Shown here in pieces: positions 25,888 to 55,896 of a stretch of 64,000 bases of DNA (positions are counted from its first letter, which is position 1; every line of letters begins with the position of its first letter). The notes below the pieces were generated by a model that saw only the letters and a list, made by a program, of their open reading frames with translations, was not told where the DNA came from and did no database searches. The translations under genes were made by a program, and so were the position numbers. Origin of the DNA: Saururus chinensis (lineage: Eukaryota > Streptophyta > Magnoliopsida > Piperales > Saururaceae); NCBI GenBank assembly GCA_035235625.1, contig CP141145.1, positions 20,338,563 through 20,402,562 on the forward strand, in the 5' to 3' direction.

Positions 25888-26159
25888 TGTGGATGTGTTA
25901 TATTCCAACATTAATTGAGATTATAGTTGTCTTATTGAATTTACCCTTTTTGAGTAGCCTATTTCCTATTCTGGTTAGGATTAGTTTTGTGTATCTTTTT
26001 TTAGTAGGAATATTAGTTTATTTCACTACAAATTATATGTTTCATCACATTCTAAGAAAAGAATATAGAATTCAATTAGTTTATTTAATTTTCTAGTTTA
26101 ATCTTCATCTTCTTCTCTTTTTTTCATTATTATCTCTCTATAGATCTTCTTGGTCTACA
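25888..26159 (+). repeat. 5' LTR of the split chromovirus
   Basis: It begins TGTGGATG and ends GGTCTACA. It aligns with 55647-55896 through blocks such as CTATTTCCTATT, TGGTTAGGATTAGTTTT and AAATTATATGTTTCATC. It has a ~18-bp extra piece near its start and numerous substitutions relative to the 3' copy. Confidence 0.8.
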
Positions 26160-26169
26160 CCATTGGTAG

Positions 26170-26837
26170 ATGAGGACGTTCTACTCCTTATTACCCACCC
26201 TCTTCATCCATGAGCCAGTCACGATGGAAGAGCCCATTGCATCGACTAAGCTTGGACCCACTATCACACTGTCTCCCACAACTGCAGAGTCTTCATCTCT
26301 CCGTGATGTGCCCATTTCGGACCCTTTCTCTGCTCGCTTTCACGCCCATACACAGTAATTAAAAACTCAAGTAAAATTAGTCGTTGTGGAGCTTACCAAT
26401 ATGAAGACAGCCATTACTGCATACTACGATGAGCATAACCACCGTTTTGAAGATAATTTGAAGACACCACCCGATGATATGACAACCTTGTGAACTCAAT
26501 TTCTTAGCTAGTGGATATCATTCGTGGGCTTGAGACACATGCGGCACTTGTCACCCTTTCGCAGATGCCAATCGCCCCTGCCTTGCTATCAAACCCGGCC
26601 TACTTCACCCACTCTGCAGCTTTTGGAGTCTCAGATTCGCTCGTTGCACCATCGCTACCCTCTGGACTTGAAAAAGGTGTCGCTTTTCCGCTTCCCCATC
26701 TTCCGCCGGTGTCTGTGGTCACCATGTACCCTTTCAGACCATCTGCTCCACCACTGCGGCTTTCCCTTGCACCAATCATTAGTGTTACACCGAACCAAAC
26801 CTGCTCCACTATGCCGTTGTTGCCCTCCTCTCCCGTC
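26170..26837 (+). pseudogene. Left part of the chromovirus leader/gag region
   Basis: From the first ATG after the LTR the translation is Ser/Thr/Pro-rich (ITLSPTTAESSSLRD), then NMKTAITAYYDEHNHRFEDN. This resembles the coiled N-terminal region before the gag domain in small chromoviruses. Stops occur at 26356 and later. It is broken at 26837 by the MULE, and the frame continues at 49124, where the first residues after the target duplication fit. Confidence 0.6.
26829..26837. other. MULE target-site duplication, left copy
   Basis: TCTCCCGTC lies directly before the MULE terminus GGTTTCGGATCGG. The identical nine bases follow the other end at 49115-49123. Nine bases is the usual MULE duplication length. 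Confidence 0.9.
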
Positions 26838-26973
26838 GGTTTCGGATCGGCTGTGATGCACTCCCACCGGGGTGGGTGGGAGTGCCGAATCAGGTGAAAC
26901 CACGTCACCAAGGTGGCAGCAGGAGACCGGGTTACTCGTTGACCCGGGTGACCGATGGCTTCGTGAACAGGAC

Positions 26974-27031
26974 GACCGGGCGAAGGTATTAATCAGATCA
27001 GAACCGGGCGAAGGTATTAATCAGATCAAAA
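26974..27031 (+). repeat. 28-bp tandem repeat in left TIR (2 copies)
   Basis: The unit reads CCGGGCGAAGGTATTAATCA followed by GATCAGAA. There are two copies here and three in the right TIR (about 48888-48976), the only sizeable difference between the TIRs. Confidence 0.85.
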
Positions 27032-27065
27032 CCGGGCCAGGCCAGTGGAGTGCATTTCACGAAAC

Positions 27066-27480
27066 CCAGAACTCCCGCTCTGATCTGCCCCGGTGATCCG
27101 ATCAGCACTCTGCGACTCACTCCGTCCCGTTGCTCCCGCTCCCACCCGGTGACCAGAGAAGCACCGATCGACGCCGGAGAAGAGTGGAGTGTTCTTCAAG
27201 GAACCCACTTTCAGAACTCCCGCTCCCACCCAACCCGGCGATCGGAAGAGCTCCCGCTCTGCTCTGCCCCGGTGATCCTTGGAGCACTCTGCAACTCACT
27301 CCGTCCCGCTGCTCCCGCTCCCACCTGGTGACCAGAGAAGCACCGATCGACGCCGGAGAAGAGTGGAGTGTTCTTGAAGGAACCCACTTTCAGAACTCCC
27401 GCTCCCACCCACCCCGGCTATCGGAAGAGCTCCCGCTCTGCAACTCACCCATCCCGGTGACCAGAGCAGCGGCGATCGAC
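27066..27480 (+). repeat. ~181-bp tandem repeat in left TIR (about 2.3 copies)
   Basis: Units begin near 27067, 27248 and 27429 with AACTCCCGCTCTG or GAGCTCCCGCTCTG and share CACCGATCGACGCCGGAGAA and GAGTGGAGTGTTCTT. They are GC-rich, with many GAGCGGGAG words. The third unit is truncated. The mirror image lies at about 48440-48860. Confidence 0.85.
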
Positions 27481-28031
27481 GCCGAAGAAGAGTGGTCAGG
27501 CAGCAACATTCTCAGAGGCAGCCGACACATAAAAAATGAAATAGGAGGTGCAGTCTGTTGGCGCTCACTCCTGCAAGTCGGTCTGATTCCCGTTCGACAG
27601 TCGAAAAAGCACGATCGTTGAGGTACAACAAACGAACTTGAGATGCAGATGCGCTTATGTATTTTTTTTTTGTCTCTATCCATCATTCCAGGGGGAAAAA
27701 AAGGAACTTCGATTGTTTTAACATTCCATTTTCTTTCACGGACAACTTCTGGGGTTTGATTGTTCTGCATTGTGTTTACTGCGCGCCAAAGTGACTGCTC
27801 CATCCCAAATTCTTTAGGTTCCATTTTCTTTCACAGATATTTTCTGGGTTTTGAATGTTCCACATTGTGTTTACTGCAAGCTTCAGTCACTACTCCATCC
27901 CAGATTCTTTAAAGAATAGAAAATTGGATTTTTTGCTTTTTACCACATTTCCACCGACCTGCATTTCGTTTGTTCCGCATTTTTTGATGGGCTTTCTTTC
28001 AGCTTACCACGCTTCTATATGTCGGAGAGAA

Positions 28032-28580
28032 TAAACTGCATATGCTCTGTGGTTATTTTTATTTTTGAATCTGAAGTCCTAGATCGACAAAGTGAGGCCT
28101 TTTCATCTCCTGCAAATCAAAATTATGTTGTCCAGAGCCTCTTCTCTGTTTTGCTTTTTCCAGGAAAAATTGTATCTTTTCCACTTTAGAATTTTTTGTT
28201 GCTGTCTACTGATGAAACTGCATATGCTCTGTGTTTATTTTTATTTTTTAATCTGAAGTCCTAGATCGCCAAAGTGAGGCCTTTTCGTCTCCTGCAAATC
28301 AAAATTATGTTATCCAGATCCTCTTCTCCATTTTGTTTTTTCCAGGAAAAATTGTATCTTTTCCACTGTGGAATTTTTTGTTGCCTGTCTACTGATGAAA
28401 CTGCATATGCTTTATGTTTATTTTTATTTTTGAATCTGAATTCCTAGATCGCCAAAGTGAGGCCTTTTCGCCTCCTGCAAATCAAAATTATGTTGTCCAG
28501 AGCCTTTTCTCCGTTTTGCTTTTTCCAGGAAAAATAGTATCTTTTCCACTTTGGATTTTTTTGTTGCCTATCTGCTGATG
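28032..28580 (+). repeat. ~182-bp tandem repeat in left TIR (3 copies)
   Basis: Copies begin near 28034, 28217 and 28399 with AACTGCATATGCT and contain AGTGAGGCCTTTTCG, TCCTGCAAATCAAAATTATG and CCAGGAAAAATTGTATC. The last copy runs into the palindrome array. The mirrored array lies at about 47345-47895. The unit length nearly equals that of the GC-rich repeat further out, although the sequences are unrelated. Confidence 0.85.
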
Positions 28581-28581
28581 A

Positions 28582-29325
28582 ACCTTGGAGCAATATTGTT
28601 CCAACTTGGAGCAATATTGCATCAACATTGGAGCAATATTGCTCCAACCTGAAATGTTCAATGATTTTGATGCATTTAATTGCTTACCGATTATTTTGAT
28701 GCCTTCAATTCATATAAGCCTTGCAGCAATATTGTTGTAGGGTTGGAGCAATATTGCTCCAACCTTGAGCAATATTGCATTAGCATTGGAGCAATATTGC
28801 TCCAACTTGGAGCAATATTGCATCAACCTTGGAGCAATATTCTTCCAACTTGGAGCAATATTACATCAACCTTGTAGCAATATTGCTCCAACCTTGGAGC
28901 AATATTGTTCTAACTTGGAGCAATATTACATCAACATTGGAGCAATATTGCTCCAAGGTTGGAGCAATATTGCTCCAACATTGGGGCAATATAGCATCAA
29001 CATTGGGGCAATATTGCTCCAACCTGAAATGTTCTATGATTTTGATGCCTTTAATTTATATGTCTTGGAGCAAAATTGTTGTAGGGTTGGAGCAATATTA
29101 CATCAACATTGGAGCAATATTGCTCCAACCTTGGAGCAATATTGCATCAACATTAGAGCAATATTGCTCCATTATTGGAGCAATATTATTCCAACCTTGA
29201 AGTAATATAGCATCAACATTGGGGCAATATTGCTCTAACCTTGGAGCAATATTGCTACACTGTTGGTGCAATATTGCTCCAACTTTGCAGCAATATTGCT
29301 ACACTATTGGAGCATTATTGCTACA
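28582..29325 (+). repeat. Left array of a 20-bp perfect palindrome (TTGGAGCAATATTGCTCCAA)
   Basis: About 30 units of a ~22-bp repeat built on TTGGAGCAATATTGCTCCAA, which equals its own complement. Variants change the arms (TGCATCAA, TTCCAAC, GGGGCAAT) but keep the CAATATTG core almost everywhere. The array spans the inner edge of the TIR and ends about 110 bp before the transposase ATG, so it lies in or near the promoter. All reading frames happen to be open through it, giving spurious ORFs. Confidence 0.9.
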
Positions 29326-29434
29326 ATATAGCCATATAGTATTTTGTTACACACTAATAAAATGTCTTAGTTTCAAAATTTTGAATATATTCCCTTCTTT
29401 TCTTCATAATATTTTTATGGACTTGTGTAGGGCA

Positions 29435-32011
29435 ATGGCAAGTGAGGGGTCAAGTGTTCGATGTGATGGGCATAATGAAGGTGATGAACAAAATGACATT
29501 CAAATAGGAAGCCAAGTAAACTCTGCTTGTCGGAAATTAGATTTTCATGAAGTAGAAGAAAGAGTACCAAATATTGGAATGGAGTTTGCAACAGAGGAGA
29601 TGGCTTACAAATTCTACAATGATTATAGTGCAACAATTGGATTTAGCATTCGAAGAGGATGGAAATGGAAAAAAGATGGCATAATTAGAATGCGAAGATT
29701 TTGTTGTTCAAAAGAAGGCAAAAGAGTTGAAGATAAAAGAAATAGAGTGGTGAAGAATCCTCGTCCAGAAACAAGAACATGCTGTTTAGCTATGATGGTT
29801 ATCAAGCTTGTAGGCGACATGTATAAAATTGTAGAATTTGAGCCAAGTCATAATCACATGGTTGTGACCCCAACAAAGGTTCCATTTTTGAATTCACATA
29901 GACGCATGAGTATGTCTCAATTTGTGTTGGCTGATTCAACGGCAAGTGTAGGCATTCCACCTAAAGATTCTATAGCTTTGCAAGCAAGCCAAGCTGGTGG
30001 TCAACAAAATGTAGGGTTTCTTGCAGTGGATCTGAAAAATTATTTACGTACTAAGCGTCAAAAGGTGATGGAAAAAGGAGAAGCAGCGGCTTTGTTAGAA
30101 TACTTCAAAAGAAAACAAAAGGATAATCCATCTTTCTTCTACTCAATGCAGTTGGATGAAGATAGTCTGATAACTAATATCTTTTGGGCAGATGCGAGGA
30201 TGATAGTAGACTATGAGAATTTTGGGGATGTGATCAGCTTTGATACCACGTATAAAACTACTAACATAAATTGGCCGTGTGCATTGTTCACTGGTGTAAA
30301 TCATCATCGCCAAAATACCATATTTGGGGCTGCCTTGTTATATGATGAGACTGCTAATTCTTTTATTTGGTTACTTGAGACTTATCTTGTTGCAATGTCT
30401 GGTAAGAAACCGGTTACTATCATTACAGACCAATGTGCAGCAATGGCTAAAGCTATTCGAGTTGTTATGCCAGAAACCCATCATCGCTTATGTATATGGC
30501 ATATATATCAAAATGCAGCTAAACATCTCAGCCATGTTTTTGAAAAGTTTCAGTCATTTGCAAGAGATCTAAAACAATGCATATTTGAGTTTGAAACAGA
30601 GGAGGAGTTCTTAGAGGGATGGAATAGGATGATTGAGAAATATACAGTTCAAGATCATCCGTGGTTGCTTCAGTTGTTTCGTGAGAAGGAAAAATGGGCT
30701 ATGGCTTATGGTCGACATCATTTTTGTGCGGGAATGAAGTCCATACAGCGCAGTGAATCTATGAACAGTATTTTGAGGACGTATGTAAATTCTAAAATAA
30801 ATCCTATGGAGTTTCTTCATCATTTTGATAGATTAGTAGATGATCGACGTTTTCAAGAGTTACAAGCTGATTTTAAAATGTTGGATAGAACTCCTAGGTT
30901 ACTCATGTTCTCTAAAATGTTAGCACAAGCGGCAAAAATTTATACCCCAGCTGCTTTTGAAATATTTTTAAGTGAGTATCAAGATCACTTAGATTGTGAA
31001 ATTCATGAATATATAGAGAAAGGAGCAACAATGGAGTTCAAAGTTGTAGGAAAGCATGGTCAACACAATGTCACATTTGATTTACAAGATCACACAGTTG
31101 TTTGCAGTTGTAAGAAGTTTGAATTTGCAGGAATACTATGCAGTCATTCATTGAAAGTGTTTGATAATAGATGTGTGAAGATGCTCCCTCCCCAATACAT
31201 AATCAGACGGTGGTCAAGAGATGCAAAAGTTCAGGTCATAATGAATTCAACTTCAACAACTACTGACACTGACCCACATAAGGCTATGGGAACACGCTTC
31301 ATGGAGTTGTCACGTATATTGATTGCCATAGCAGCACGGGGTGCTGAATCTGAAGCGGCATATAAGGCAACAATGATTCAAGCTAAAATTATGTCCCAAG
31401 TAATAGATGAGGAATTGAAGCAAACTCATCAAAATGAGCTTCAAGATAAGGCTGCAAATATGCATGAGACCCTCACACAAAAGGATATCAATGACCAAAA
31501 TATTGAGGTACCTGCATCAGGGATAAAAATACGGGAGAAACGTGCTCGTGATGGTAAAGCAGCTGCGAGGAAGAGGGGTTGCCTTGAGAGACATCACAAG
31601 AAAAAAAAGCAATCAAGTCCAAGCACTCAGCAGTCTCCCGCCTCATGTACTCAATTGCCTCAATTGCAGCTTCGACCTCATATCCCAATGTTTCAGCCAC
31701 CTCAAGTAATTATATTTATTCACTATGTTATAGATACTATCACATGTCTTTTTGTATTCTATATAATTCTAAATTATTGGCATGTATTATAGGATTCATT
31801 TTGTTGCGAAGATACTCCTAGAGGTATCGAAAGTTTTTCCAACTTACTTGAGGTAAGTTCAATCATTTGCTTTAACTAAAGCATTTTATTTGATAGTTTT
31901 AGCAAAATATGATTTAGTAAATTTATTTACATTGTGCATCAGCAAGTCAGTATGTCTCCCATAGAATCAAGCCACTTGCAGATTCCTAAACCTCAACTGA
32001 GGTTTAGCTGA
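29435..32011 (+). CDS. FAR1-type Mutator transposase (FAR1 DNA-binding, MULE, SWIM domains)
   Basis: The transposase of this MULE. The best model has exons 29435-31705, 31793-31852 and 31943-32011 (GT-AG introns, phase 0), giving 799 residues. I chose ATG 29435 because upstream in-frame sequence is palindrome array; ATG 29417 is possible, and TTGTGTAG just before could be a leader-intron acceptor. Residues about 50-145 form a FAR1 zinc-binding domain (FATEEMAYKFYNDY, CC...H.H). The DDE core is complete: Asp270 (FDTTY), Asp332 (TDQ), Glu441 (SESMN), with CIWH at 353-356. A SWIM finger follows (Cys557, Cys559, Cys569, His571), then a basic tail. There is no stop or frameshift. Domesticated relatives are FAR1/FHY3, but location between TIRs indicates a working transposon gene. 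Confidence 0.9.
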
Positions 32012-33741
32012 AGCCAATTCAGGTAAAAATAGATATTAATCACTCGTTATTAATTGAACATGAAGTATAAAATCAGTTTTTATAAGCTTTTACTGATTAC
32101 AATTTTAAGTGGTTTTTTATTCAGGAGGTTGAAAATATTTTTTGCCATTTTGCTAAGTGATGCTATATGAATCACAGAAGGTTGATAACATTTTGTAACA
32201 TTTTGTTAAGTCATGTTATATGTAATCTTGGAAGGTTGAAGACAATTTCTACGATTTGGAAAATAGATGAGGTAATTTTTCCTGCATGATGCTACTATGT
32301 AACAATTTGTATTGAATCTTGTCTTTGGAATCGAGTTTGTAAAAAAAAGAAAGATAGGTTATTTTGTAGATATTCTCAAACATGGTGATGAATCCAACTT
32401 CGATGAGTGTCACACTAATCATATTATGTAGCTCTCCTTTTGTCATTTGGTTGTTCTGTCTAAATGCTTTCTATTTATTGTAGATTGGTGGGCACCATTC
32501 CAATGAAGATTTTGCAATGAGAGATAAGGAACCCAAGGATGAAGTATAAATTTAAACATGGAAGGATGCTACAATTCATGAATTGATAGATATGGTATAT
32601 TAAATTTTATATTACCCCTCTTGAAGTCTTTTGTAATACTTTTTTTCCTGGACATGAACTGTACACATTTATAAACTTTTTCCGGTCAAAGAGGTTGATC
32701 CTCAAGCAAGAAGAAGAGATGCTAAATTGTCGTTTGCTTTTGTATATCGTAATAAGAATGACCGTTTTGTGGTCAGACCTGTAAGAACAATGACTGTCAG
32801 TAGGCTTGATTGTTCATAATATAGTTCCTATCAATGTTTGGCAATCATAAACTTGATGATGGAACTTTGATTATTGGAATTGTACCATAATATTTTAAGC
32901 TTTATAGGTAGACATGTAACTGATTTGGCAACTATGTTACAGGCAGCAATATTGCAATGATGATATAGTTTTTTAAACTATTGCTTACTTGCATATGAAA
33001 GATAAACAGGTACTTTGAATGAGTTCTTATTCCATCAGCTATGCAATATTCCAGAGATTTGTGAAACCTTGTTAGGTATTTTTGTGTGATCCACCATTTA
33101 TGTTTATACTGATATTCACTTGTTAAACTTAGGAACATTGGGATTTGCTATATGTTTTAGTTAATTTTTTAGTTAGGAACAAGGGTATGTATGTTTTAGT
33201 TAATGTTTTGGAAAAGTGAAAGTGCTTGGTTTTTTTTAAGTTTTTCGTTGTATAGATTTAGTTGGGACAAATGATCTAAATATGCTTATTTTCATGTTAT
33301 ATTAATTTGCTCTTTTTAATTGGGCTGTGGGATTAGAAGTGAGATATTTCGAGGTGTAGACCACAAAGTTTTTTCTGTTATATTTTGCAACCAAGTTAGT
33401 ATATGATTTGAGGTGATTTTTACGTTGCATAATTAAGGCCATATTAACTCGGCAACATCAATCTTAAAGTTATGATTTTCTATCTCCGGATTTCTAGGAC
33501 ATATAGCATTTGGTTATCCATGGACTATTTAATTAGGGGGAATATAGTACTTTGCTGTAAAATGTTCTCCTTTCCCTTTTTCCTGTTAGCATTTGCAGGC
33601 TCTGTTCACACTTGTTATAAAATATTCTTCAATTCTTAGGTTTTATTCTTCCTTCATACTGGTTGTAGTTTTAAAGAATCAGGAGACAAAATGTGTATAA
33701 CATTGTATCCTTTTTGTAACTCCATTATATCTCTGCATCAG
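32012..33741. other. AT-rich non-coding region downstream of the transposase
   Basis: No domain or long ORF is recognised. It includes imperfect repeats of GAAGGTTGA (32109-32240) and likely the transposase terminator. The last base is a splice acceptor (GCATCAG) of the captured kinase fragment, so part of this may be captured intron. Confidence 0.5.
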
Positions 33742-34729
33742 AGGCTTCAAAAACCAACAGCAAGAGAAAACTATCTACAAGTGTATCAAGTTTGACTCTG
33801 CCATCTTACAGCGAGAATAGTGGTAGTTCTAATGCTCCAACACCACAAACTGAGTGCGAAATCTCGTCATCCCCATATTTGAAGAACTTCCCTTTCAATC
33901 AGCTCAGAAATGCGACTAGAAACTTCCATACAGAATCTCTCCTTGGAGAAGGAGGATTCGGTTATGTTTTCAAGGGATGGGTCGATGAGCAAACAATAAC
34001 TGCTTTAAAGCCTGGATCTGGAACGGTTGTTGCTGTGAAGAATCTTAAAGCATATGGTTTTCAAGGCCACAAAGAGTGGTTGGTAAGCCTTTCTTCTCTT
34101 ATAGAATTTGTTTAATTAAGTTTCTCAGTTTTATTGGTGTTATTAATTTGGTTTCACAACTGATGTGGACAGACAATTGTGCAGTACCTCAGTCAACTTC
34201 ACTATCCAAATCTAGGTAAGCTCATTGGTTATTGCTCTGAGGGTGACTACCGATTACTGGTCTATGAGTACTTGCCAAAAGGTAGTCTAGAGAACCACCT
34301 ATTTAAACGTAAATTATAACTACTTTGTTTTATGTTACTTGGAAATGAAATCATGCTCCTTGTGCATCTTCGGGAGAAACATTTGTCATAAGTAAAAAAA
34401 ATCCCACACTTTCAACATTTAAAGACGTAGATTTCATATAATTCATGTATGATGAAGTGCCTTTGTTTGTGGTGTACGGACATGATTGTGTACTTGTTGT
34501 GACTCCTATTAATACGTAAAGATATCTATTTAGTAGTTGTTGATTTCTTTTTAGTTATATTGCATCTCATAGAAAATGGACCTCTTTTTCAGGAGGAGCT
34601 CAGCCACTTTCTTGGGATATAAGAATCCAAGTTGCAATTGGTGCTGCATGAGAACTCACATTATTGCACGATTCAGAATGTCAAGTGATATATCGCGATG
34701 TTAAAGCTTCAAACATCCTCCTTGATGCA
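33742..34729 (+). pseudogene. Captured receptor-like cytoplasmic kinase fragment (RLCK VII/PBL type)
   Basis: Three exons with intact splice sites: 33742-34082, 34173-34308 and 34593-34729. They encode the N-terminal linker and the kinase N-lobe to catalytic loop: FPFNQLRNATRNFHTESLLG, GEGGFGYVFKGWVDE, VVAVKNL (the ATP-binding Lys), [47 protein letters not shown] and VIYRDVKASNILLD. GWVDE and GHKEWL are typical of RLCK subfamily VII. A TGA replaces an Arg codon just after GAA (about 34650), and everything downstream of the catalytic loop (DFG, C-lobe) is missing. The retained introns show DNA-level capture by the MULE rather than retroposition. Confidence 0.85.
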
Positions 34730-34909
34730 GTATGGCTAAAGCTGCACATATTACATGATCCCAAATAAAATGTGTTGACCTCATTCTTATTGTTTGGATG
34801 GGTGGGGCTTGCCTAAGATGGGACTGCCAGTGTTTCTTATTTGTGCACAATATTGCATACTCTGTTTTCCTTTATCACAATATTGCATACTCTGAGAATT
34901 TCTTTACAG

Positions 34910-35330
34910 CCAACAAGCTTGGAGAGGGTGGATGTGGACATGTTTATATGGTTTTTCCCCACATTTCATTGTAGGGATTTTAAGAACCGTAACTCCACAG
35001 AAACATAAGAAAAGAAATTGGAGGATCATAAAAATAGATATTTTATAAAATAGCTCACTGAGCATTAATCATAAGCATCTAGGTATTAAAGGAGCTTAAT
35101 GGCAATCTTGCAAGGAAAAATTAGTAAAGGGTCAAGAAATAGCTGTGAAAAGGCTCTCTCAAAGTTCAGGACAGGGATTTGAAGGGTTCAAGAATGAGGT
35201 GGAACTAATTGCAAAGCTCTATCACTAAAACCTTGTTAGGCTTTTGGGATGGTGCATCCGCTAAGAATAAAAATTATTGATCTATGAGTTCATGCCCAAC
35301 GAAAGTGTAGAGAAATTTTTGTTTGGTTCG
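34910..35330 (+). pseudogene. Captured cysteine-rich/S-domain-type receptor kinase fragment
   Basis: It encodes NKLGEGGCGHVYM (glycine loop), then after a likely intron [41 protein letters not shown] and KLLIYEFMPNESVEKFLFG. This is the N-lobe of a DUF26 (CRK) or S-locus-type receptor kinase, not the RLCK type upstream. Stop codons follow LYH and GWCIR, and no C-lobe is present. It is the second, independent kinase capture placed side by side with the first. Confidence 0.8.
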
Positions 35331-35580
35331 TTCTTATCTTTGATCATTTTATTACTTGATATGTTTGTTAGAGGGAATGAATATGAAGTAAATACTAAAA
35401 GAGTAGTTGGAACCTAGTAAGTTTCATATGCATTAATATATTAAGCGTGATCATCAAAGCATTAGCGAACTCAAGTTTTGAAATGTAATTTAAAATTTCC
35501 ATTAAGAGAAATTATCACTTGGAAACACTTAATATGAAACAAATTTATAGTGAATAACATCAATGTTCATCCAAAAGAGA
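35331..35580. other. Spacer between the kinase fragment and the internal palindrome array
   Basis: AT-rich, no signal. Confidence 0.4.
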
Positions 35581-35584
35581 TGCT

Positions 35585-36475
35585 AAACTTGCTGCAATAT
35601 CGCACCAACATTGGAGCAATATAGCTCCAACATTGGTGCAATATCGCTCCAACATTGGTGCAATATCGCTCCAATGTTGGAGCGATATTGCTCCAACATT
35701 GGCGCGATATTGCTCTAATGTTCAATGTTGGAGTGATATTGCAACAATAGTAGCAATGTTGGAGCGATATTGCTCTAATGTTCAATGTTGAAGCGATATT
35801 GCTCCAACAGTAGCAATGTTGGAGCAATATTGCTCCAACATTGGAGCGATATTGCACCAATGTTGGAGTGATATTGCTACAACATTGCTACTGTTGGAGC
35901 GATATTGCACCAATGTTGGTGCAATATTGCTCTAACATTGGAGCAATATTGCTCTAATGTTCAATGTTGGAGCAATATCGCTCCAACATTGGAGCGATAT
36001 CGGTCCAACATTAGAGCGATATTGCACCAATGTTGGAGCGATATTGCTCCAACATTGAAGCGATAGTGTAGCAATTTTGGAGCGATATTGCTCCAACATT
36101 TGAGCGATATTGCTTTAATGTTGGAGCGATATTGCTCCAACAGTAGGAATGTTGGAGCGATATTGCACCAATGTTGGAGTGATATTGCTTCAACATTGAA
36201 GTGATATTGTAGCAATTTTGGAGCGATATTGCTCCAACATTTGAGCGATATTGCTTTAATGTTAGAGCGATATTGCTCCAATGTTGGAGTGATATTGCCC
36301 CAACATTGGAGCGATATTGCACCAATGTTGGAGCGATATTGCTCCAACATTGAAGCGATATTGTAGCTATTTTGGAGCGATATTGCTCCAACATTTGAGC
36401 GATATTGCTTTAATGTTGGAGCGATATTGCTCAAATGTTGGGGCGATATTGCCCTAACAGTAGCAATGTCCTCAG
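35585..36475. repeat. Internal array of a variant palindrome (GGAGCGATATTGCTCC)
   Basis: About 40 units of a 22-bp repeat, mostly TTGGAGCGATATTGCTCCAACA. Compared with the TIR arrays, one arm has GCGATATTGC instead of GCAATATTGC, so each unit is no longer a perfect palindrome. The orientation of the asymmetric base switches near 35676, where CAATATCGC units meet GCGATATTG units head to head. Longer repeats of 100-200 bp are superimposed (for example around 36060-36120 and 36190-36250). It lies in mid-element, separate from both TIRs. Confidence 0.85.
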
Positions 36476-38835: not shown

Positions 38836-38999
38836 GTAAATTTTACCAAATTTGATAAAAGAAAATCCACCATAGATGAACATGTCGTCCTTAGCAGATG
38901 CCTAAGGAGAATTACCTAAAATTTAAAGAAGAAAATCTTAGCATCATCATTCTACAAATATTAAATATCCATATTAAGTACAAAACACTATAGCATAAG
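38836..38999. other. Spacer between captured Raf-like and UFL1 exons
   Basis: AT-rich intron-like sequence. Confidence 0.4.
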
Positions 39000-41615
39000 A
39001 TCAACAATGAAAAACATACTGAGGTTGATGGATCATCTTCAAATAAATCGAGGGCTTTCTCATAAAGTTGAATATCCAAAAAGGCCTGGAAGGAGATATG
39101 AAAAAGATGTTATAAAAATATATAAATCTTGGGCTTTTATTTCTCATAAAAGAAATAAACTAGAATAAAAATCCTCATTCACAAATTGTCATGCCATTAG
39201 AAGGTAAAGACCAAACTAAGATGCCATACAAAAGACTACCTTAGATTAAAAGGGTGGGCTTCTAATTTTTCTTTTTATTTCACATAAAAAGAAAGAACAG
39301 TGTCATGAGAAGCCCTTATATGAGTAAGAGTTTTTGTTTCTTTGTCTAGGAGACCGAACACATCCTGCACATTAAAGAAAGGGAGAATGACATAACCTCA
39401 TAATAAACAAACAAATAAAAAGAGACCAAAGGAAAGGGAAAAAAATATATTTGCAGAAATCTTAAATACCAAGGGACTAGGATCTATAGACTGACCTTGA
39501 TGAAATTGGTACTCAACACACAATACTCCCCTAGAATAGTTGCTTTAGCTGACTGGGAAGTGATGTGTGAGAAATAATTCAAAATCAAAGTACATGTCCA
39601 AGAAGTGTCTTAAACATTAAAAAGGTTCACCTTAAGTGCCCTCTTAACTGATGGACAAAGAGACAAAACCTTTGGAGCATCCCGATGCCCATAAACCGCA
39701 GAGTAGAATTGAAAGGCAAATAATCCTGTAATCCACAAGGGGAATTATATCAGAAAAGGCAGCAAGGATGATGTATGCATTAATTTTCCTTAAAAATAAA
39801 TATCTGTTTCAAGCTGGAAAGCTAGTATGCACTCCTACCTAAGTGAAAAAAGATTCTATGCTTTCTCTTTGAGCATGGGCAAAAACCTGCAAAGACACAA
39901 ACCGACAACAGCATTTAAAAATAAGTGTCCCACAACAACCTTCATCAAATTACTAACAGTTTAATTTGCTCCCATTTTCACATTCTTAATCCTGGTAACT
40001 TTTTATCATAAAAGTTCACGTAAATTTAAGCAAATCAAGCCAGAAAATTGGAGATTTTGAAAGCCACAACATAATTAAGAGCAACAAATGCTAATAAGAT
40101 GTTTCATACAGCAGGTGTCCATTGAACTCCAAAGACGAAGTGATCCAAGTATCTCGCCTTCCTTAACTAGACCATTACATAAAGATTGGAAGAAAACACC
40201 TTCAACAGATACACCACTCAATCCATCTGTCTCAATTAATAATTGTTGTAGAGAGCTCCAAACTGTTGATAAATTAGTGGGAACAATGATACCCCTTGAA
40301 GCTCCACGCACCGTAGCATTAATACGTGCAACATATGCAGGTGTATACAGCTGTCCTCCCTCAAGTCTTCCTTGCACCTAGAAAGAATAAAATTGTAATG
40401 TTGGTACTGCTTTGACAATTGGAGACATGATAAATACAAATGGTTATTGATGAAGCATATTTTTGAGTAGTAAAGAATGTCTCAGAGAACAAAAATAAAG
40501 AAAAAAGTTGTAAAAGTCATAGAGATCCTTTTCTTCATAGGCTAGTGACATGGCTACAAGTGATTGCCTGGTATTTCTTTCAGCTCTCAGAAGTATAAAA
40601 TCCCATTATGACTAGAACTCAGAGATTATATTCAGATCTACGTTTCTATGAGTAGCACCTCATATTTTTTGGCTCCACATATCCCTGTAGAAGAACATTT
40701 TAACTTATAAACAGTAGTTAACCTAATCTTCTGTTCATCTTTATTTTCTTGGAATAGTTAAGTTCATATGATATTGTGCTATTCACATAAATGATATTCC
40801 TAGCTACTGCTCCACTTGACAATGAGGTTTTTGGCATACACAAAATTATTACATGATAAAAAGTTTCATTGAATTTAACATGGAAGAATTTGAATGCATG
40901 TTAACGTAGGATGAAGAAAATAAAAATAAACAAGAGAAAGATAATAAGTATCCACTAGTCAATTAGTAGCAGCAGATGATCCACACTTTGTGGGTGCCAT
41001 AATCTCAATCAAATTCAATTTTCTCAAATGAGCAACAGATAAGATGATAGTAAAGGTGATAACTATTCATGAAATATGTAAAATTGTCGATGTTGGCTAT
41101 AAATTGGTCAGTGCAGCACAAAGAATCATATTAAATTTTCTACAGCATTTTTCATATCCTACAAATACAAAGTTGGCACGTTGATGTACTATGTGGTTTC
41201 AACAAGGGGAAAGATATAATTTGATAACAAAGTGCAAACTTCATGACATCCTGTTGCATACAGTGGTCATCTACAATCACACAAACATTATACGATATAA
41301 ATGCAAGGAGAAATATATGCTTACAAGAATCCAAAGACGGGTCTCCAAAACAGAAGCCAGCAACTCTGAGCTGACATGCAAGCTGAGCAACGAGATCTGC
41401 TAATGCAATTTGACTACATTCTCGAAGCCTCTCATTAATTTCTTCAGCAACTGCAGACCAAATAGGATTGAGCTATTATATCTCCTTGTATTAGCATGAG
41501 ATCTGAATTGCTAGAAACTATCTATCGAGATTGCATCTCCACATAGAACAAATCATCACCAATATTATCAGCAAGATCTATCAATGAAACTCGTCCAGAC
41601 TTTTCAATTTCTGCC
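39000..41615 (-). pseudogene. UFL1: Captured, internally deleted UFL1 (E3 UFM1-protein ligase 1) gene
   Basis: UFL1 attaches the ubiquitin-like modifier UFM1 to proteins at the endoplasmic reticulum. In minus order, exon-sized blocks read EIEKSGRVSLIDLADNIG (about 41610-41550), AEEINERLRECSQIALADL (41460-41350), LEGGQLYTPAYVARINATVR, GASRGIIVPTNLSTVW and GVFFQSLCNGLVKEGEILGS (40377-40110), VFAHAQRESIESFF (39890-39840), DAPKVLSLCPSVKRAL (39725-39630) and LYEKALDLFEDDPSTS (39085-39020). These match plant UFL1 in order but skip large parts, including the N-terminus and the region between CPSV and LYEKAL. Introns are retained. It lies directly upstream, in the same orientation, of the Raf-like exons, so one antisense transcript could join both. 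Confidence 0.85.
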
Positions 41616-42505
41616 TACATTTCAAGTCTCAGATGATTCTGTCACCACAAACAAATGGGCCAACGTTTTATTAAACATAGTTGCAAATGCTCTTTATTAT
41701 TCAAAACAAAAAGGAAAAAATGTAAAATACAAAGGTATATCACCATGTCCCATATATGGATCACACCACAAATCGTGACTTCAACATATAATCACATGAT
41801 GCAGAAACAATTTTCATTTTTAAGCTAGCTAGGTAACAGTTCAAAGGATGAGTGTCATGACGTATCTAATTGATGAGTGAGAACAACTAGGATCAGCCAA
41901 AGCAATAGTTAGTTTTCTTTTGAAAGCTAATTGGGTAATATTCAAAGAATGAGGGTTATGGCGAAATTAATTGACAAGTGAACAACCAGGATCATAAAAA
42001 AATTAAACATACATTTCATTAGAAGACCTCTAGCAAATAATGGCGAACTGTCAATGAATTTGGTATAAGCATTTGATAGAAAGTGAGAGAAAAAGAGATG
42101 AATATAAATTCGGTGAGAACCTTTGTATTATACTCTACCTTTTAAAACAAAGGCTTCTCATCTATCATCACCTTTTTCTGGAGAAAAAGAAATAATTGGG
42201 TGATAAACATTGAAGAAGGAGATAATGAAGAAGAAGAGAGTTAAATATTGGGCGGATAAAAACAAAAGACCCCATGACAGTCTCAACCGGGAACTTTTGT
42301 CTTCATTCATCTAACCACCAATGTAAGTAGTAGAATAAAAAAAAACCGACGGAAACCAAATTCATCAGCTTTCAACCTTTAATACAAAGTAAAGCCCAAG
42401 CAAATGTTAGATTCACCCCTTTCATATATACATACCTATGGATCTAGGAAACATTAATACATATCATTTAAGGTTCTCACCATCACCATAAAGACTCATA
42501 CTCAA
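41616..42505. other. Non-coding interval between UFL1 exons and the ULP1-type gene
   Basis: AT-rich. A near-duplicate of ~65 bp occurs at 41825-41895 and 41925-41995 (shared words AAAGCTA, TTCAAAG, ATGAG and ACAAC...AGGATCA). No ORF of note. Confidence 0.45.
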
Positions 42506-45500
42506 TCAATAGAGCCTCTTAGGATCTCTCGCAGCCATTCCAAGTCTCAAACGCTGAGAGATATCTTCCTAAAAAAGTTGAAACGAATAAATTTGTTAGT
42601 ATCCCATTTTGACTGAAGGAATAAAGAAGAAATAAAAAAATATATGCAATTGGCCCATATATCTTATTAACCCCATTATACCTGAGTATAATCAACTGGC
42701 AAACCAGAACTAATGCAATATACAGTACGCATGAGGAAGAACCCACAATCAACCCCGTTTGATTGGTATGGTCCCTTCTTACTAACGATCTTCCACTTTT
42801 TAGCATTAGGTACCTTAAGGTGCTCCTCAAGAAATACTCCAATGCTATCCATCTATTATTCACATATTTGCCAAATTAGTTTCAAAGCAATTGTTTAAAG
42901 AAAAATTGGTTTCAATGAATCATACATTAACTCACCAATTTTTTCACATTAGGATGTCGTTTCTTATGGCCATACCCAGGCATGGAATCGAACCATTTCA
43001 CTTCAGTCTTGTCAACATCTATGACCAATAAGTGAAAATGTGCATTGTCACACATTGGTATAAAAATGAAATCAGGACATTCTTTATCCACTCCAAAACA
43101 TGTGGTTGCGAGGTCCTCCAATGCGTCCTCTGCCATAACCTTCAATTGCAATTCCCATTGGATTTGCCTTAGTCCATATCCTAACTTAACCCAATACATA
43201 AAAATATTAGGCTTTGGACCATACCTTGGTGAAATAAAATTGCAACGCAAAGGTCCCAAAGTGGCATTTGGGGAAGGCATTTCCAGTAGATCTAGATGCT
43301 CTTTGTTGTAGCATATACATGTAAGCATCTATTACCTACATACATTGAAGCATACACTTAGTATAAAATCAATATTGAATACTTAAGATTTAAAGAGATA
43401 GAAATTGTAGTCTTACATTAGACGAGATGTACTCCGCCTTCAACATATCCACTAAGTCATTGTCTGCGACACCGACACCCACCACAGAATGGCTCCTATC
43501 TGTAATGAATTTTTGAATAGTGTCTTGATCTCGCGTACACAAATTAGATAGAGGACTGCATAAGTTAATCTTCATTGGACGGTGAGGGAAGGTACGGGAT
43601 GCTTGCTTGGCTGAGGCTTCGCAAGAAACTAAAATGCTTGCAGCCTCCTCCACAGTCATTTCCTTCTTCTCCCTCCTCTTCCTCTTTGTCTCCTGAGTAA
43701 AAGGGGTCCCATACTTCTTACTTTTATATTTTATCCGTAGAGGTCTTTTCGAAGTGAGACCCTCTTTATCTCCCTCCTCATCTTTCTTTCGGCACTCCCC
43801 AACTGGACCCTCCTTTCTCTTATCCTCCCCTTGCTCCGCTCCCCCCTCCTCTTCATCCGCCTCTCTCCCCTCTCCCTCATCCACTCTCCCCTCCTCTCCT
43901 GCCTCTCCCCCATCCTCTCCCCCCTCTTCCTCCTCTCCCCCTCTCCCTCATCCACTCTACCCTCCTCTCCTGCCTCTCCCCCATCCTCTCCCACCTCCTC
44001 TCCCCCCTCTTCATCCTCTCCCCCATCCTTTCCCACCTCCTCTCCCCCCTCTTCCTCCTCTCCCCCATCCTTTCCCACCTCCTCTCCCCCCTCTTCCTCC
44101 TCTCCCCCATCCTCTCCCACCTCCTCTCCCCCCTCGGCCTCCTCTCCTCCTTCTCCCCCTCTTCCTCCACCTCTTCCCCCTCTTCCCCTCCCTCCTCCTC
44201 ACCCTCCTCTTCCCCTCCCTCCTCCTCACACTCCTCTTCATTATCATCATTATTATCTCCAATATCTTCCTCGTCAGCTTTGCCACCTTCATCCTCGCCC
44301 GCTGCTGCAGGGGAGGTATGCCTCATCCTCTTTGATGGCCTCTTAACCAAATGATTGGCCATGTTCTTAAATGTCAAAAAAAATTTTGAAATGGTGTCCA
44401 TGACACCATGTAGATGGTCAGTAGGGTAGCCCTCCTCCTCCAATATATGCATGGCAGTATGCACAACTCCAAGTGCAGAGGCCATATTATCTAGTGCCGA
44501 CTTCAGGACCAACATTCCTCCCCCACTCGCCTTCACCAGCGCCCCACCTTCCATTGCTACCTTCCTTTTTTTTAAGGCCTTTCCTGCCCCTTCAATGAGA
44601 TTTGCCTCATTCGCAACAGGAACCAACACAGATAGAACCTGTGGTCAACATATGCACAATTAGTTAACATGCAAAGTTCAATAAACTAAAAAGTTGAACA
44701 GATTTTAAAAACTCAAACATTTCAATATAAAAAATAGTCACAATTACCTCTTGTGGTCTCAGAAACTTAAACATTTGTGCATATTTGCCCACCGACCTAT
44801 GGTGCTTAGCCTCTTTTTCCCCCTTTAGCATGCCACAATTTGGCCACTTCGCAAATCGGGGCAGCTTATGCGGCACAGGGGATATGAACATCTTAAAATG
44901 CTCAAACACCCAAACCTATAACATATAAAAGATAAAAATTAGCATTTTGTAACTCCTATATAATCATGTAAATACAATTATGTAGCAAGTATAAAATACC
45001 TGTAGGACAAATGTTGCTCCAATCAATGATCCATAGCCCTCAAACTTGCCTGCCTCCTTCGACATAATCTTCCTATGGAGGGTTGAGGCTGAGACTACTA
45101 AAAATTCATAAATAGCTTGAGGCCAGTCATATTGATGGAGGCTGCCCATGTCTTCCACCAGGTCAATTAATGCGTTCTTGACCACAGTGTGGGTCTGAGG
45201 AAATAGGAGGCATGAGAAAATGTGCAAGATGATCGTTCTTGCACAATCCTCCACCGATGTAGGGTCAGTCGTGGCAGTTAAAACGTCCATGGTCTTCTCA
45301 ATTTCAGATCTTGTAACCTGCTTCTTCCCAAAACGACGCTTACAATACGCACCCCTCTCCTCCCTTTCTTGGGCGAAGACCACCCGATTGCCCCCCTTCT
45401 TCAGGCCAGTAATGAGGGCCACATCCTCCACAGTGAAGTCCACTCTACATCCTTTGAATGTGACCCCAGGTTGGGCCTCAGTCCAATAACCCAAAATTAC

Positions 45501-46098
45501 TTCAAAAAGTGACGCCTGACAAACGATGTTTCTGGCGTCTAACAATTGGATGAAGGGGGCTTGGCTAACAAGAGTCTTCACCTCTGGGAAGGTAGACAAT
45601 ATGCTCACTGACTTTGCTAGTCCCGAGGGGAAACAAGGGACTTTCAATGACTCTTGCCTATTTCTTCCTGATCCTCCTCCAAGGTTTGAGCCCCTCTTCT
45701 TTGATTCAAGAACTTCTGCATCAATACATATCTAAGTATTAGTAAGAAGGTACCTAGACATATAATAAAAGTGTTGAATATAACCCCGTAAATAACATAG
45801 CAATATTTAAAATATACACTGGCATCATATTCAAGATGGTATGAGTATAGCTGAAATAATGCTACAACATTTTTAGGTAGTGTGCTATAAAATTACCAAT
45901 AATGCAAAAATGTTGTAGCAATAATGTCTTTAAAATGTCGCATATAATTCAATTATTGATAATAGGATTAACATTTAAAATATTGTTATAACAAGAGCAA
46001 TAATCCTAATGCATAAGCATTAATATTAGTACATCAACAACATCCACAAACATTTTAAACGTAGGGATTAAAAAAAACCTACTTGATTTAGTTGCCAT
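42506..46098 (-). CDS. MULE-borne plant-mobile-domain-like / ULP1 (C48) protease gene
   Basis: The model has seven minus-strand exons with GT-AG sites: 46098-46083, 45715-45000, 44915-44748, 44638-43417, 43328-42936, 42852-42682 and 42568-42506. It starts MATKS and ends DPKRLY-stop. The first ~300 residues resemble the plant mobile domain/DUF1985-like part of transposon ULP genes (VDFTVEDVALITGLKKG, QYDWPQAIYEFLV, GYGSLIGATFVLQ then VWVFEHF). A linker follows, Glu/Gly-rich with a 42-bp repeat. The C-terminal C48 protease domain has the catalytic His and Asp (HFHLLVIDV, WFDSM) and Cys (QSNGVDCGFFL). Exon 4 is 1,222 bp, one base off a multiple of three, so one net frame slip occurs in the low-complexity linker. 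It is therefore either broken, differently spliced, or affected by an assembly error. Confidence 0.75.
43900..44165 (-). repeat. 42-bp (14-codon) tandem repeat coding for an acidic linker
   Basis: The minus-strand unit encodes GGEEVGKDGGEEEE, repeated about four times between 44120 and 43960, with degenerate GA-rich repeats on either side. 42 is a multiple of three, so unit number can vary without changing frame. Another frame of the same stretch reads RRWERMGERRKRGE. The overlap of three open frames here is where the net slip of the ULP1-type gene must lie. Confidence 0.8.
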
Positions 46099-46215
46099 GA
46101 TAGATATTCAATGAAAGGAAGCCCTACTATAGTGAAGACACTGTTCCTGAAACATCAAAAAGCGCATTACAAAAGTTATAATGTTGTTAAGAATTATTAG
46201 CATTTATAATTTACA

Positions 46216-47345
46216 ATTGTAGCAATATTGCTCAATCCTTGCATCAATATTGTTGCAAGGTTGGAGCAATATTGATCCTAAGGTGTAGTAATATTGCTCC
46301 TACGGTGTAGCAATATTGCTCCAAGACTTAAATAAATTAAAGGCATCAAAATCATCAAACCTATCAGGTTGGAGCAATATTGCTCCGACGGTGTAGTAAT
46401 AATACATTTCATGTTGGAGCAATATTGCTCTGACGGTGTAGCAATATTGCTCCAAGGTTGGAGCAATATTGCTCCAATGTTGATATAATATTGCTCCAAC
46501 CCTATAGCAATTTTGCTCCAAGACATATATAAATTAAAGGCATCAAAATCATAGAACATTTCAGGTTGGAGGAATATTGCTCCAATGTTGGTGCAATATT
46601 GCTCCAAGTTGAAACAATATTGCTCCAATGTTGGTGCAATATTGCTCCAAGTTGGAACAATATTGCTCCAAGGTTCATGCAATATTGCTCCAAGTTGAAT
46701 CAATATTGCTCAAACCCTACAACAATATTGCTGCAAGGCTTATATAAATTGAAGGCATCAAAATAATCGAACATTAAAGGCATCAAAATTATCAGTAAAC
46801 ATTTAAAGGCATCAAAATCAATGAACAGTTTCAGGTTGGAGCAATATTGCCCCAATGTTGGAGCAATATTGCCCCAATATTAATGCTATATTGCCCCAAT
46901 GTTGCAGCAATATTGCCCCAATGTTGATGCTATATTGTCCAAGGTTGGAGCAATATTGCTGCAACCTTGGAGCAATATTGCTCCAATGTTGATGTAATAT
47001 TGCTCCAAGTTGGAACAATATTGCTCCAAGGTTGGAGCAATATTGCTACAAGGTTGATGCAATATTGCTCCAAGTTGGAAGAATATTGCTCCAAGGTTGA
47101 TGCAATATTGCTCCAAGTTGGAGCAATATTGCTCCAATGCTAATGCAATATTGCTCAAGGTTGGAGCAATATTGCTCCAACCCTACAACAATATTGTTGC
47201 AAGGCTTATATGAATTGAAGGCATCAAAATAATCGGTAAGCAATTAAATGCATCAAAATCATTGAACATTTCAGGTTGGAGCAATATTGCTCCAATGTTG
47301 ATGCAATATTGCTCCAAGTTGGAACAATATTGCTCCAAGGTTCAT
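46216..47345 (-). repeat. Right array of the 20-bp perfect palindrome
   Basis: The same TTGGAGCAATATTGCTCCAA-based units as at 28582-29325, about 45 copies. The outer part (above about 46920) mirrors the left array base for base; the inner part has extra copies and a second block with an interspersed AAATTAAAGGCATCAAAATC word (46325, 46530 and 46750). It begins about 120 bp upstream of the ULP1-type gene's ATG, as the left array does relative to the transposase. Confidence 0.9.
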
Positions 47346-49114
47346 CAGCAGATAGGCAACAAAAAAATCCAAAGTGGAAAAGATACTATTTTTCCTGGAA
47401 AAAGCAGAACGGAGAAAAGGCTCTGGACAACATAATTTTAATTTGCAGGAGGCGAAAAGGCCTCACTTTGGCGATCTAGGAATTCAGATTCAAAAATAAA
47501 AATAAACACAAAGCAAATGCAGTTTCATCAGTAGACAGGCAACAAAAAATTCCACAGTGGAAAAGATACAATTTTTCCTGGAAAAAACAAAATGGAGAAG
47601 AGGATCTGGATAACATAATTTTGATTTGCAGGAGACGAAAAGGCCTCACTTTGGCGATCTAGGACTTTAGATTAAAAAATAAAAATAAACACAGAGCATA
47701 TGCAGTTTCATCAGTAGACAGGCAACAAAAAATTCTAAAGTGGAAAAGATACAATTTTTCCTGGAAAAAGCAAAACAGAGAAGAGGCTCTGGACAACATA
47801 ATTTTGATTTGCAGGAGATGAAAAGGCCTCACTTTGTCGATCTAGGACTTCAGATTCAAAAATAAAAATAACCACAGAGCATATGCAGTTTATTCTCTCC
47901 GACATATAGAAGCGTGGTAAGCTGAAAGAAAGCCCATCAAAAAATGCGGAACAAACGAAATGCAGGTCGGTGGAAATGTGGTAAAAAGCAAAAAATCCAA
48001 TTTTCTATTCTTTAAAGAATCTGGGATGGAGTAGTGACTGAAGCTTGCAGTAAACACAATGTGGAACATTCAAAACCCAGAAAATATCTGTGAAAGAAAA
48101 TGGAACCTAAAGAATTTGGGATGGAGCAGTCACTTTGGCGCGCAGTAAACACAATGCAGAACAATCAAACCCCAGAAGTTGTCCGTGAAAGAAAATGGAA
48201 TGTTAAAACAATCGAAGTTCCTTTTTTTCCCCCTGGAATGACGGATAGAGACAAAAAAAAAATACATAAGCGCATCTGCATCTCAAGTTCGTTTGTTGTA
48301 CCTCAACGATCGTGCTTTTTCGACTGTCGAACGGGAATCAGACCGACTTGCAGGAGCGAGCGCCAACAGACTGCACCTCCTATTTCATTTTTTATGTGTC
48401 GGCTGCCTCTGAGAATGTTGCTGCCTGACCACTCTTCTTCGGCGTCGATCGCCGCTGCTCTGGTCACCGGGATGGGTGAGTTGCAGAGCGGGAGCTCTTC
48501 CAATCGCCGGGGTGGGTGGGAGCGGGAGTTTTGAAAGTGGGTTCCTTCAAGAACACTCCACTCTTCTCCGGCGTCGATCGGTGCTTCTCTGGTCACCAGG
48601 TGGGAGCGGGAGCAGCGGGACGGAGTGAGTTGCAGAGTGCTCCAAGGATCACCGGGGCAGAGCAGAGCGGGAGCTCTTCCGATCGCCGGGTTGGGTGGGA
48701 GCGGGAGTTCTGAAAGTGGGTTCCTTGAAGAACACTCCACTCTTCTCCGGCGTCGATCGGTGCTTCTCTGGTCACCGGGTGGGAGCGGGAGCAGCGGGAC
48801 GGAGTGAGTCGCAGAGTGCTGATCGGATCACCGGGGCAGATCAGAGCGGGAGTTCTGGGTTTCGTGAAATGCACTCCACTGGTCTGGCCCGGTTTTGATC
48901 TGATTAATACCTTCGCCCGGTTCTGATCTGATTAATACCTTCGCCCGGTTTTGATCTGATTAATACCTTCGCCCGGTCGTCCTGTTCACGAAGCCATCGG
49001 TCACCTGGGTCAACGAGTAACCCGGTCTCCTGCTGCCACCCTGGTGACGTGGTTTCACCTGATTCGGCACTCCCACCCACCCCGGTGGGAGTGCATCACA
49101 GCCGATCCGAAGCC
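46920..49114 (-). repeat. Right terminal inverted repeat of the MULE
   Basis: The complement of 26838-28990. It has three instead of two copies of the 28-bp unit (about 48888-48976) and few point differences over more than 2 kb, for instance GACGGATAGAG versus GATGGATAGAG in the complement near 48240. The high identity indicates recent transposition or gene conversion between TIRs. Confidence 0.9.
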
Positions 49115-49123
49115 TCTCCCGTC
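49115..49123. other. MULE target-site duplication, right copy
   Basis: TCTCCCGTC, identical to 26829-26837. Confidence 0.9.
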
Positions 49124-55646: not shown

Positions 55647-55896
55647 TGTGGTTTAATTAGGATTCTAGTTGCCTTATTGAATTTACCTTCTTAGAATAGT
55701 CTATTTCCTATTTTGGTTAGGATTAGTTTTATTTACCTTCTTTTAGTTGGATTATTAGTTTAATTCTCTATAAATTATATGTTTCATCCTATTCTAAGCA
55801 TAAAATACAAAATTCAATTCATTTCATTTAATCTTCTACTTTAATCATCCTCTCCCTTTTCTCTTATTATCTATGTGTAGATCCTCCTAGTCTACA
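55647..55896 (+). repeat. 3' LTR of the split chromovirus
   Basis: It begins TGTGGTTTAATTAGG after a GAGGACAAGGCGATGC stretch and ends AGTCTACA. It is the partner of 25888-26159. The flanking bases do not form a clear target duplication, as expected for an old element. Confidence 0.8.

Follow-up and report, generated by a model that had tools for sequence, protein, structure and literature searches.

A giant FAR1-type Mutator-like element family of Saururus chinensis with long terminal inverted repeats, captured pieces of host genes and a possible anti-silencing gene

In this study we analysed a 64,000-nucleotide stretch of Saururus chinensis DNA (the window; C6:20338563-20402562, contig CP141145.1), in which positions 26838-49114 very probably represent a young insertion of a giant, transposase-encoding Mutator-like element (MULE) of FAR1 type, with a family history behind it. 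The same 22-kb unit was amplified, cargo included, in a multi-copy burst. Both genes of the element are immediately preceded by arrays of a 22-bp palindrome, an observation that goes beyond an earlier note made from the letters of this DNA. Our interpretation of these arrays is tentative, and we regard it as rather doubtful: this family, which bears terminal inverted repeats (TIRs), may have its own anti-silencing system resembling the VANC/KIU systems of VANDAL elements, in which a plant mobile domain (PMD)/DUF1985-Ulp1 protein would recognise the palindrome, which is arrayed upstream of each gene and again in the central part of the unit, and would thus free the family to amplify a 22-kb unit laden with pieces of host genes.

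The element is 22,277 bp long and its borders are formed by the following features (all positions without a contig name are those of the window):

26829-26837, no strand: left copy of the target-site duplication (TSD) TCTCCCGTC, exact 9 bp, adjoining the element end
26838-29024, plus strand: left TIR, 2187 bp
46950-49114, minus strand: right TIR, 2165 bp
49115-49123, no strand: right copy of the TSD TCTCCCGTC, exact 9 bp, adjoining the element end

The sequence TCTCCCGTC occurs exactly twice in the window, in both cases directly at the element ends. Alignment of the left TIR with the reverse complement of the right one revealed 2117 matches, 19 mismatches and 80 gap columns (99.1% identity with gaps excluded), and 28 of these gap columns reflect a difference in repeat number. 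The left TIR has a GC-rich outer part and contains 28-bp, 179-bp, 95-bp and 183-bp tandem repeats, together with the start of the first palindromic array. When the flanks are joined with a single TSD copy, one retroelement frame is open from 26508 to 49273; open reading frames (ORFs) similar to reverse transcriptase and integrase were read by eye from the ORF list of this outer retroelement. The latter is bounded by a pair of sequences similar to long terminal repeats (LTRs; 25911-26161 and 55653-55898), and it looks older than the insertion of the element, since this pair is only 81% identical.

The MULE transposase domain, the TSD of about 9 bp and the presence of TIRs place the element in the MULE superfamily. 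The TIRs of typical MULEs measure 100–500 bp (PMC3310237) or 14–500 bp, with one table entry reaching 640 bp (PMC6446971). The TIRs described here (2.19 and 2.17 kb) are longer than the latter range.

Searching of the genome (516 Mb, 11 contigs) with a 1193-bp TIR query, for which 40 of 203 candidates were scored, listed 52 matches, which formed 16 inverted pairs. The two TIRs are 21.4–22.5 kb apart in nine pairs, including that of the window element, and 11.8–19.2 kb apart in the remaining ones. Both ends were compared in 13 copies (the other copies are designated by letters): exact 9-bp TSDs were found in nine of them and near-exact ones in copies I and L (8 of 9 bases) and B (8 bp with one mismatch). 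No TSD is visible in copy F, whose right end is in direct contact with another, divergent family TIR. This TIR (C1:40149777-40150943, plus orientation) starts about 2 bp or less from that end, and matches to the family cargo and motif run on beyond it to about 40.16 Mb of C1, which indicates two back-to-back elements. The 26 flanks, each of 1.2 kb, displayed no similarity to one another at E 1e-10, and the copies are therefore separate insertions. Whole-copy comparison (8 copies) revealed that B, C, E, F, G and H are colinear with the window element at about 95–98%, cargo included, and that these full-size copies differ by local gaps. Copy D (12.8 kb) carries a deletion corresponding to window positions 33350-42590, joined at a 3-bp TTT microhomology.

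The existence of a multi-copy family excludes a chance origin of the structure. The probability of an assembly artefact or chimera is also negligible, given nine full-size TIR pairs at separate places, with different flanks and with their own TSDs where tested. The earlier note had described a 22.3-kb Mutator-like element with near-identical TIRs of about 2.1 kb, an exact 9-bp TSD and an interrupted frame resuming after the second TSD copy, and had proposed the TIR alignment and a search for further copies as checks; the description was borne out by both, since the alignment gave the identity reported above and 12 of the 13 tested copies have a TSD. Only the letters of the mirror-image ends had to be slightly corrected (left GGTTTCGG, right GGCTTCGG). 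The TIRs of the young copies form a star-like tree, in which those of the window element have short branches (0.003 and 0.005), and the left-right TIR divergence thus reflects the burst; for this reason a TIR clock for dating the insertion was abandoned.

The first of the two genes, transcribed inward from the left TIR if our reading is correct, encodes a transposase:

29417-31792, plus strand: MURA-type transposase, 791 amino acids (aa), uninterrupted, with FAR1, MULE and SWIM domains and the motifs FDTTY, TDQ and SESMN

These three motifs are presumably those with a catalytic role in MURA. Pfam analysis detected FAR1 (E 1.1e-18), MULE (E 2.9e-28), Transposase_mut (E 5.5e-9) and SWIM (E 2.7e-4; 20.8 bits, with a cut-off of 19.6). 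The protein thus has the N-terminal FAR1 domain and the SWIM finger that mark the Jittery/FAR1-type subgroup, and by its domains it appears to be a transposase of the FAR1/Jittery kind (group table of PMC6446971). Its best relatives among the matches listed are FAR1-RELATED SEQUENCE 5-like proteins, which are at most 52% identical. In the genome, 67 transposase matches were listed (57 of 1540 candidates scored) and eight of these cover residues 1-791, two of them free of stops: the window element and C10:37131406-37133778 (98%).

Comparison of seven aligned copies revealed that MURA variants common to copies comprise 7 synonymous and 9 replacement changes and no stop (omega 0.32), and private variants 20 synonymous and 51 replacement changes and 8 stops (omega 0.74). 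These counts, which are small with seven copies, would fit a gene that was under selection while the family moved and that decayed once inserted. The element might instead be non-autonomous, a large passenger that another family member mobilises in trans, an explanation that we take seriously while placing it well short of an even chance. It accords with the low proportion of stop-free full-span MURA matches, with the MURA frame being broken in all seven other copies read and with the predicted Ulp1 frame (see below) being broken in all seven full-size copies analysed, but the window element itself has an intact 791-aa frame and TIRs that are among the least diverged, and C10 carries a second stop-free MURA frame.

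The second gene is predicted on the opposite strand:

42506-46098, minus strand: predicted PMD/DUF1985 - acidic repeat - Ulp1 (C48 peptidase) gene, eight exons, all introns GT-AG
46098-46083, 45715-45000, 44915-44748 and 44638-43417, minus strand: predicted exons 1-4
43335-43225, 43139-42936, 42852-42682 and 42568-42506, minus strand: predicted exons 5-8
43836-44238, minus strand: GAG-rich tandem repeat encoding the acidic linker, the most indel-rich of the stretches compared among copies

Exons 1-4 encode a plant mobile domain overlapping DUF1985, followed by an acidic linker derived from the GAG-rich repeat, and exons 5-8 a C48 peptidase (E 4.9e-13). The spliced PMD part gave a match of E 7.2e-12 (45.6 bits, above the cut-off of 34.9). 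The peptidase part can be aligned with SENP1 (E 1.7e-12) across the stretches holding the conserved His, Asp and Cys, which we take to be catalytic. Exon 4 is open throughout in copy B (392 codons), in which the predicted gene is broken elsewhere. The length of this exon is different in each of the seven full-size copies (1128–1309 bp), which recalls the repeat-linked variable regions reported for VANC proteins.

A DNA query covering the Ulp1 region (40 of 731 candidates scored) listed 47 matches, and 27 of them, the window copy included, span the 3.6 kb completely or almost completely at 86–100%. The PMD-exon query listed 150 matches, down to about 30% (149 of 1585 candidates scored), with more than one match at some places. 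The Ulp1 gene is thus a core gene of a much larger family, and these matches rule out that it is cargo peculiar to the 22-kb unit. A search for relatives with the PMD exon (440 candidates) gave no match at E 0.001. In the genome, a distinct set of PMD exons, 72–73% identical and with stop-free frames of 282 codons (C2:398538, C4:43137032, C8:21687472, C6:17378706 and C5:13541967), probably represents another recently active family of PMD-bearing elements.

In a rough test for selection, the DNA identity of the Ulp1 region (introns included) was compared with the PMD protein identity at each locus. Six loci with 88–89% full-region DNA identity (C7:16343295, C7:35061771, C6:23931499, C5:25214333, C5:18295638 and C5:24072742) displayed PMD protein identities of 89–91%, which seems to be more than expected from unselected drift; five of the six carry one or two stops in the PMD exon. 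The DNA and protein values were 85% and 86% for C10:36527962, 85% and 84% for C7:2234492, 86% and 76% for C11:26502854, and 81% and 74% for C8:32270850. Three loci that were matched piecewise gave 93% and 87% (C2:46424970), 91% and 87% (C11:15173825), and 88% and 80% (C3:37728685).

The element contains three arrays, whose repeat unit is the 22-bp palindrome TTGGAGCAATATTGCTCCAACA:

28585-29326, plus strand: array 1, 17 exact GCAATATTGC cores; 90 bases separate its end from the presumed ATG of the transposase
35581-36470, no strand: array 2, in which the variant core GCGATATTGC prevails: 21 of 28 cores have it and 4 others its reverse complement
46216-47340, minus strand: array 3, 22 exact GCAATATTGC cores, 117 bases upstream of the first codon of the predicted Ulp1 gene

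The number of exact cores per copy varies from 13 to 21 in array 1 and from 16 to 24 in array 3 (eight copies), and from 25 to 35 in array 2 (the seven copies having this array; it is absent from the deletion copy D). The core is present in all 17 family stretches analysed (11 elements), with 3–19 occurrences in each, compared with 0.01–0.03 expected; these stretches include relatives whose TIRs are no more than 80–87% alike. The 18-mer GGAGCAATATTGCTCCAA of the palindrome occurs 586 times in forward and 596 times in reverse orientation in the 516 Mb, whereas the reversed control gave 0 and 0. Among the first 100 places listed, all of which are located in C1, 78 fall into five clusters coinciding with family matches and 22 into four further clusters. 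The observed/expected ratio of CpG is 0.04 in array 1, 0.16 in array 3 and 0.81 in array 2; the depletion was not used as evidence, because repeats of one ancestral unit amount to a single observation.

How the element works can be proposed with differing degrees of confidence. MULEs transpose by an established cut and paste process, and since the element belongs to this family, its encoded transposase would bind the TIRs and move the unit in the same way, with copying through repair. With less confidence, we suggest that both genes are transcribed inward from the TIRs, that the palindromic arrays just upstream of them are regulatory or recognition sites of the element itself, and that the PMD/DUF1985-Ulp1 protein may act on these arrays, as VANC and KIU do on the motif arrays of VANDAL elements, to counter silencing. 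The comparison with VANDAL is prompted by the layout, in which both genes point inward and a motif array separates each gene start from its TIR.

Several observations weigh against this account of the element. The matches to DUF1985 (30.4–31.7 bits, E 4.4e-7) are below the Pfam cut-off of 35.1, and among the PMD matches that of the spliced part alone passes the cut-off. The predicted Ulp1 gene of the window element changes frame within the GAG-rich repeat of exon 4, it is wholly open in none of the seven full-size copies analysed, and the MURA frames of the seven other copies read are also broken. Within the burst, the PMD exons display no signal of purifying selection (private omega 0.81; 1 synonymous and 4 replacement changes shared), and over longer distances the comparison of DNA with protein is mixed. 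Moreover, it is at least as likely that the arrays are promoter or transposase sites. In the form that we consider to have somewhat less than an even chance, this alternative states that they are binding or enhancer sites for the transposase of the element or for a host factor, serving transposition or transcription and unrelated to silencing. Two of the three arrays are located in the inner TIR and directly upstream of both genes, and the TIRs of MuDR contain both transposase sites and promoters (PMC3310237); furthermore, the first 13 bases of the dyad unit are conserved at 82–100% per base in array 1 (the last nine at 33–91%), as a DNA-binding protein might require. Such a role does not readily explain array 2, which lies in the middle of the element, distant from its ends and from both gene starts, has its own variant core, is present 25–35 times in the six other full-size copies and is lacking in the deletion copy. 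The anti-silencing role proposed above is drawn from domains and layout alone.

The cargo of the element was identified by six-frame Pfam scans of positions 31800-46200:

32481-32606, plus strand: captured SAP18 exon, with in-frame stops
33291-34882, plus strand: captured genomic piece of a PBL3-like kinase gene, together with its introns
35115-35324, plus strand: second kinase fragment, outside the first captured block
38808-42377, minus strand: captured genomic piece of UFL1 (E3 UFM1-protein ligase), introns included

A third kinase-like match (38017-38187, minus strand) is weak (E 0.055). The host gene pieces were captured at the DNA level, with their introns retained. Over exons and introns, the kinase block (33291-34882) and the host sequence L052:1205-2782 share 91.0% identity; in L052 the kinase gene runs on to the C-terminus (one catalytic-loop exon was not located). 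The closest listed relatives of the L052 gene are mostly named PBL3 or kinase 2B; the top identities among 120 listed were 73% over 55% of the query and 72% over 99% (the query lacking one exon). The UFL1 pieces match C1:61983129-61988596, the sole one of 53 scored candidates that has the N-terminal part of the domain; no TIR match was found there among the 40 scored TIR candidates, and this locus is likely to be the donor. At C9:6220615-6222147 a UFL1-bearing relative is listed whose frame is open over 511 codons in the captured part. The segment 31900-35500 is matched over its full length, or all but two bases of it, at 15 places, the window included, and copy E falls just short of this (40 of 131 candidates scored). 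The private changes amount to 3 synonymous, 11 replacement and 3 stops in the kinase exons, and to 1 synonymous, 9 replacement and 1 stop in the UFL1 exons; the cargo exons gather replacements and stops freely.

The host pieces may have entered the element by faulty gap repair, and the loss of cargo from copy D through a microhomology deletion would show this kind of repair leading to the reverse result. An improbable alternative is that the unit is a composite, into which the gene pieces were brought by nested small elements or successive insertions rather than by the element's own repair. The limits of the kinase block are sharp (query positions 1392 and 2983) and are the same in C9:8732666-8734266, which matches the block at 85%. 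In addition, C3:37719119-37721676 matches both sides of the block, with an unmatched stretch of 514 bases in its place, so that the block was gained (or lost) in one piece. The block, however, retains host introns and matches the inside of a host kinase gene, which speaks against a composite.

The earlier note had regarded the unit as autonomous-type and as a collection of a transposase, a ULP1-type gene and at least four host gene fragments. All of these are present, the fragments being those of SAP18, the PBL3-like kinase, the second kinase and UFL1, and the transposase frame is intact; the ULP1-type gene, however, is a core gene and not cargo peculiar to this unit, it shifts frame inside the GAG-rich repeat, and this copy is at most putatively autonomous.

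Two other features were noticed in the window. Direct repeats at 3-1122 and 6056-7281 (84.8% identical) surround ORFs similar to reverse transcriptase and integrase, and probably belong to another LTR retroelement. Positions 7719-7860 consist of tandem 37-bp units with the internal dyad TTAGCGACGTTTATTAAACGTCGCTAA.

According to a review, natural DNA transposition falls above a cargo of about 6 kb, and 100–200 kb have been mobilised artificially (PMC6431247). The family described here is a plant DNA transposon able to amplify a 22-kb unit that contains, besides its transposase, a conserved accessory gene and multiple pieces of host genes. If the arrays are indeed targets of the PMD-Ulp1 protein, sequence-specific anti-silencing would not be confined to the non-TIR VANDALs; the palindrome would then offer an exceptionally well-defined target, and perhaps a tool for demethylating chosen loci. 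Under the terms searched, the open-access literature yielded no MULE with 2-kb TIRs, with such a palindromic array or, at 22 kb, with both a transposase and cargo.

The earlier note had stated that most MULEs are a few kb long with TIRs of tens to hundreds of bp, but MULEs of 14–18 kb and Ulp1-bearing MULEs are both known from grapevine, whose MULE families reach 17.7 kb and include some Jittery-like ones carrying ULP; the largest TIR in the grapevine table is 710 bp (PMC2528002). Jitvine-1 and Jitvine-2 are large Jittery-like MULEs (11.9 and 14.4 kb), for which Table 4 of that paper gives no TIR length, whereas the Saururus element has 2.2-kb TIRs, 22.3 kb and several host gene pieces. Mutavine-1 and Mutavine-18, long TIR-bearing MULEs of 17.7 and 16.2 kb in the same table, differ in their TIRs (70 and 230–263 bp) and are listed under MuDR-like families. 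Pack-MULEs resemble our element in having genomic pieces of host genes between TIRs, but they lack a transposase and none of the first set exceeds 7 kb (PMC6431247), whereas the Saururus cargo resides in a 22-kb unit with an intact 791-aa transposase frame. Abermu of barley also combines a transposase with an ORF on the opposite strand in one TIR element, but it is 8.2 kb long, with TIRs of 138–145 bp, and its opposite ORF is of unknown function (PMC9168764).

As regards the putative anti-silencing gene, the KI-MULE/KIU-bearing VANDAL elements of Arabidopsis also have a transposase and an antisense gene joining a VANC-type region to Ulp1 (PMC13317346, PMC2528002), and the reported targets of these Ulp1-carrying KIU variants are short non-coding motifs (PMC13317346). 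The Saururus gene model likewise predicts a PMD/DUF1985-type protein fused to Ulp1 opposite the transposase, albeit with a DUF1985 match below the cut-off and a broken frame. KI-MULE/KIU elements are, however, non-TIR, in contrast to the 2.2-kb TIRs, FAR1-SWIM transposase, long palindromic motif and host cargo of the Saururus element. In VANDAL21, VANC21 is a DUF1985 protein with repeat-linked variable regions, and VANC proteins bind short motifs in tandem non-coding arrays, which vary between copies, and remove methylation (PMC5735166, PMC10398659). A VANC figure legend names DUF1985 and DUF287, whereas in the Saururus element DUF1985 is followed by Ulp1 instead, and the VANC21 motif, YAGTATTAY, is found in a single orientation, whereas the Saururus motif is a 22-bp dyad.

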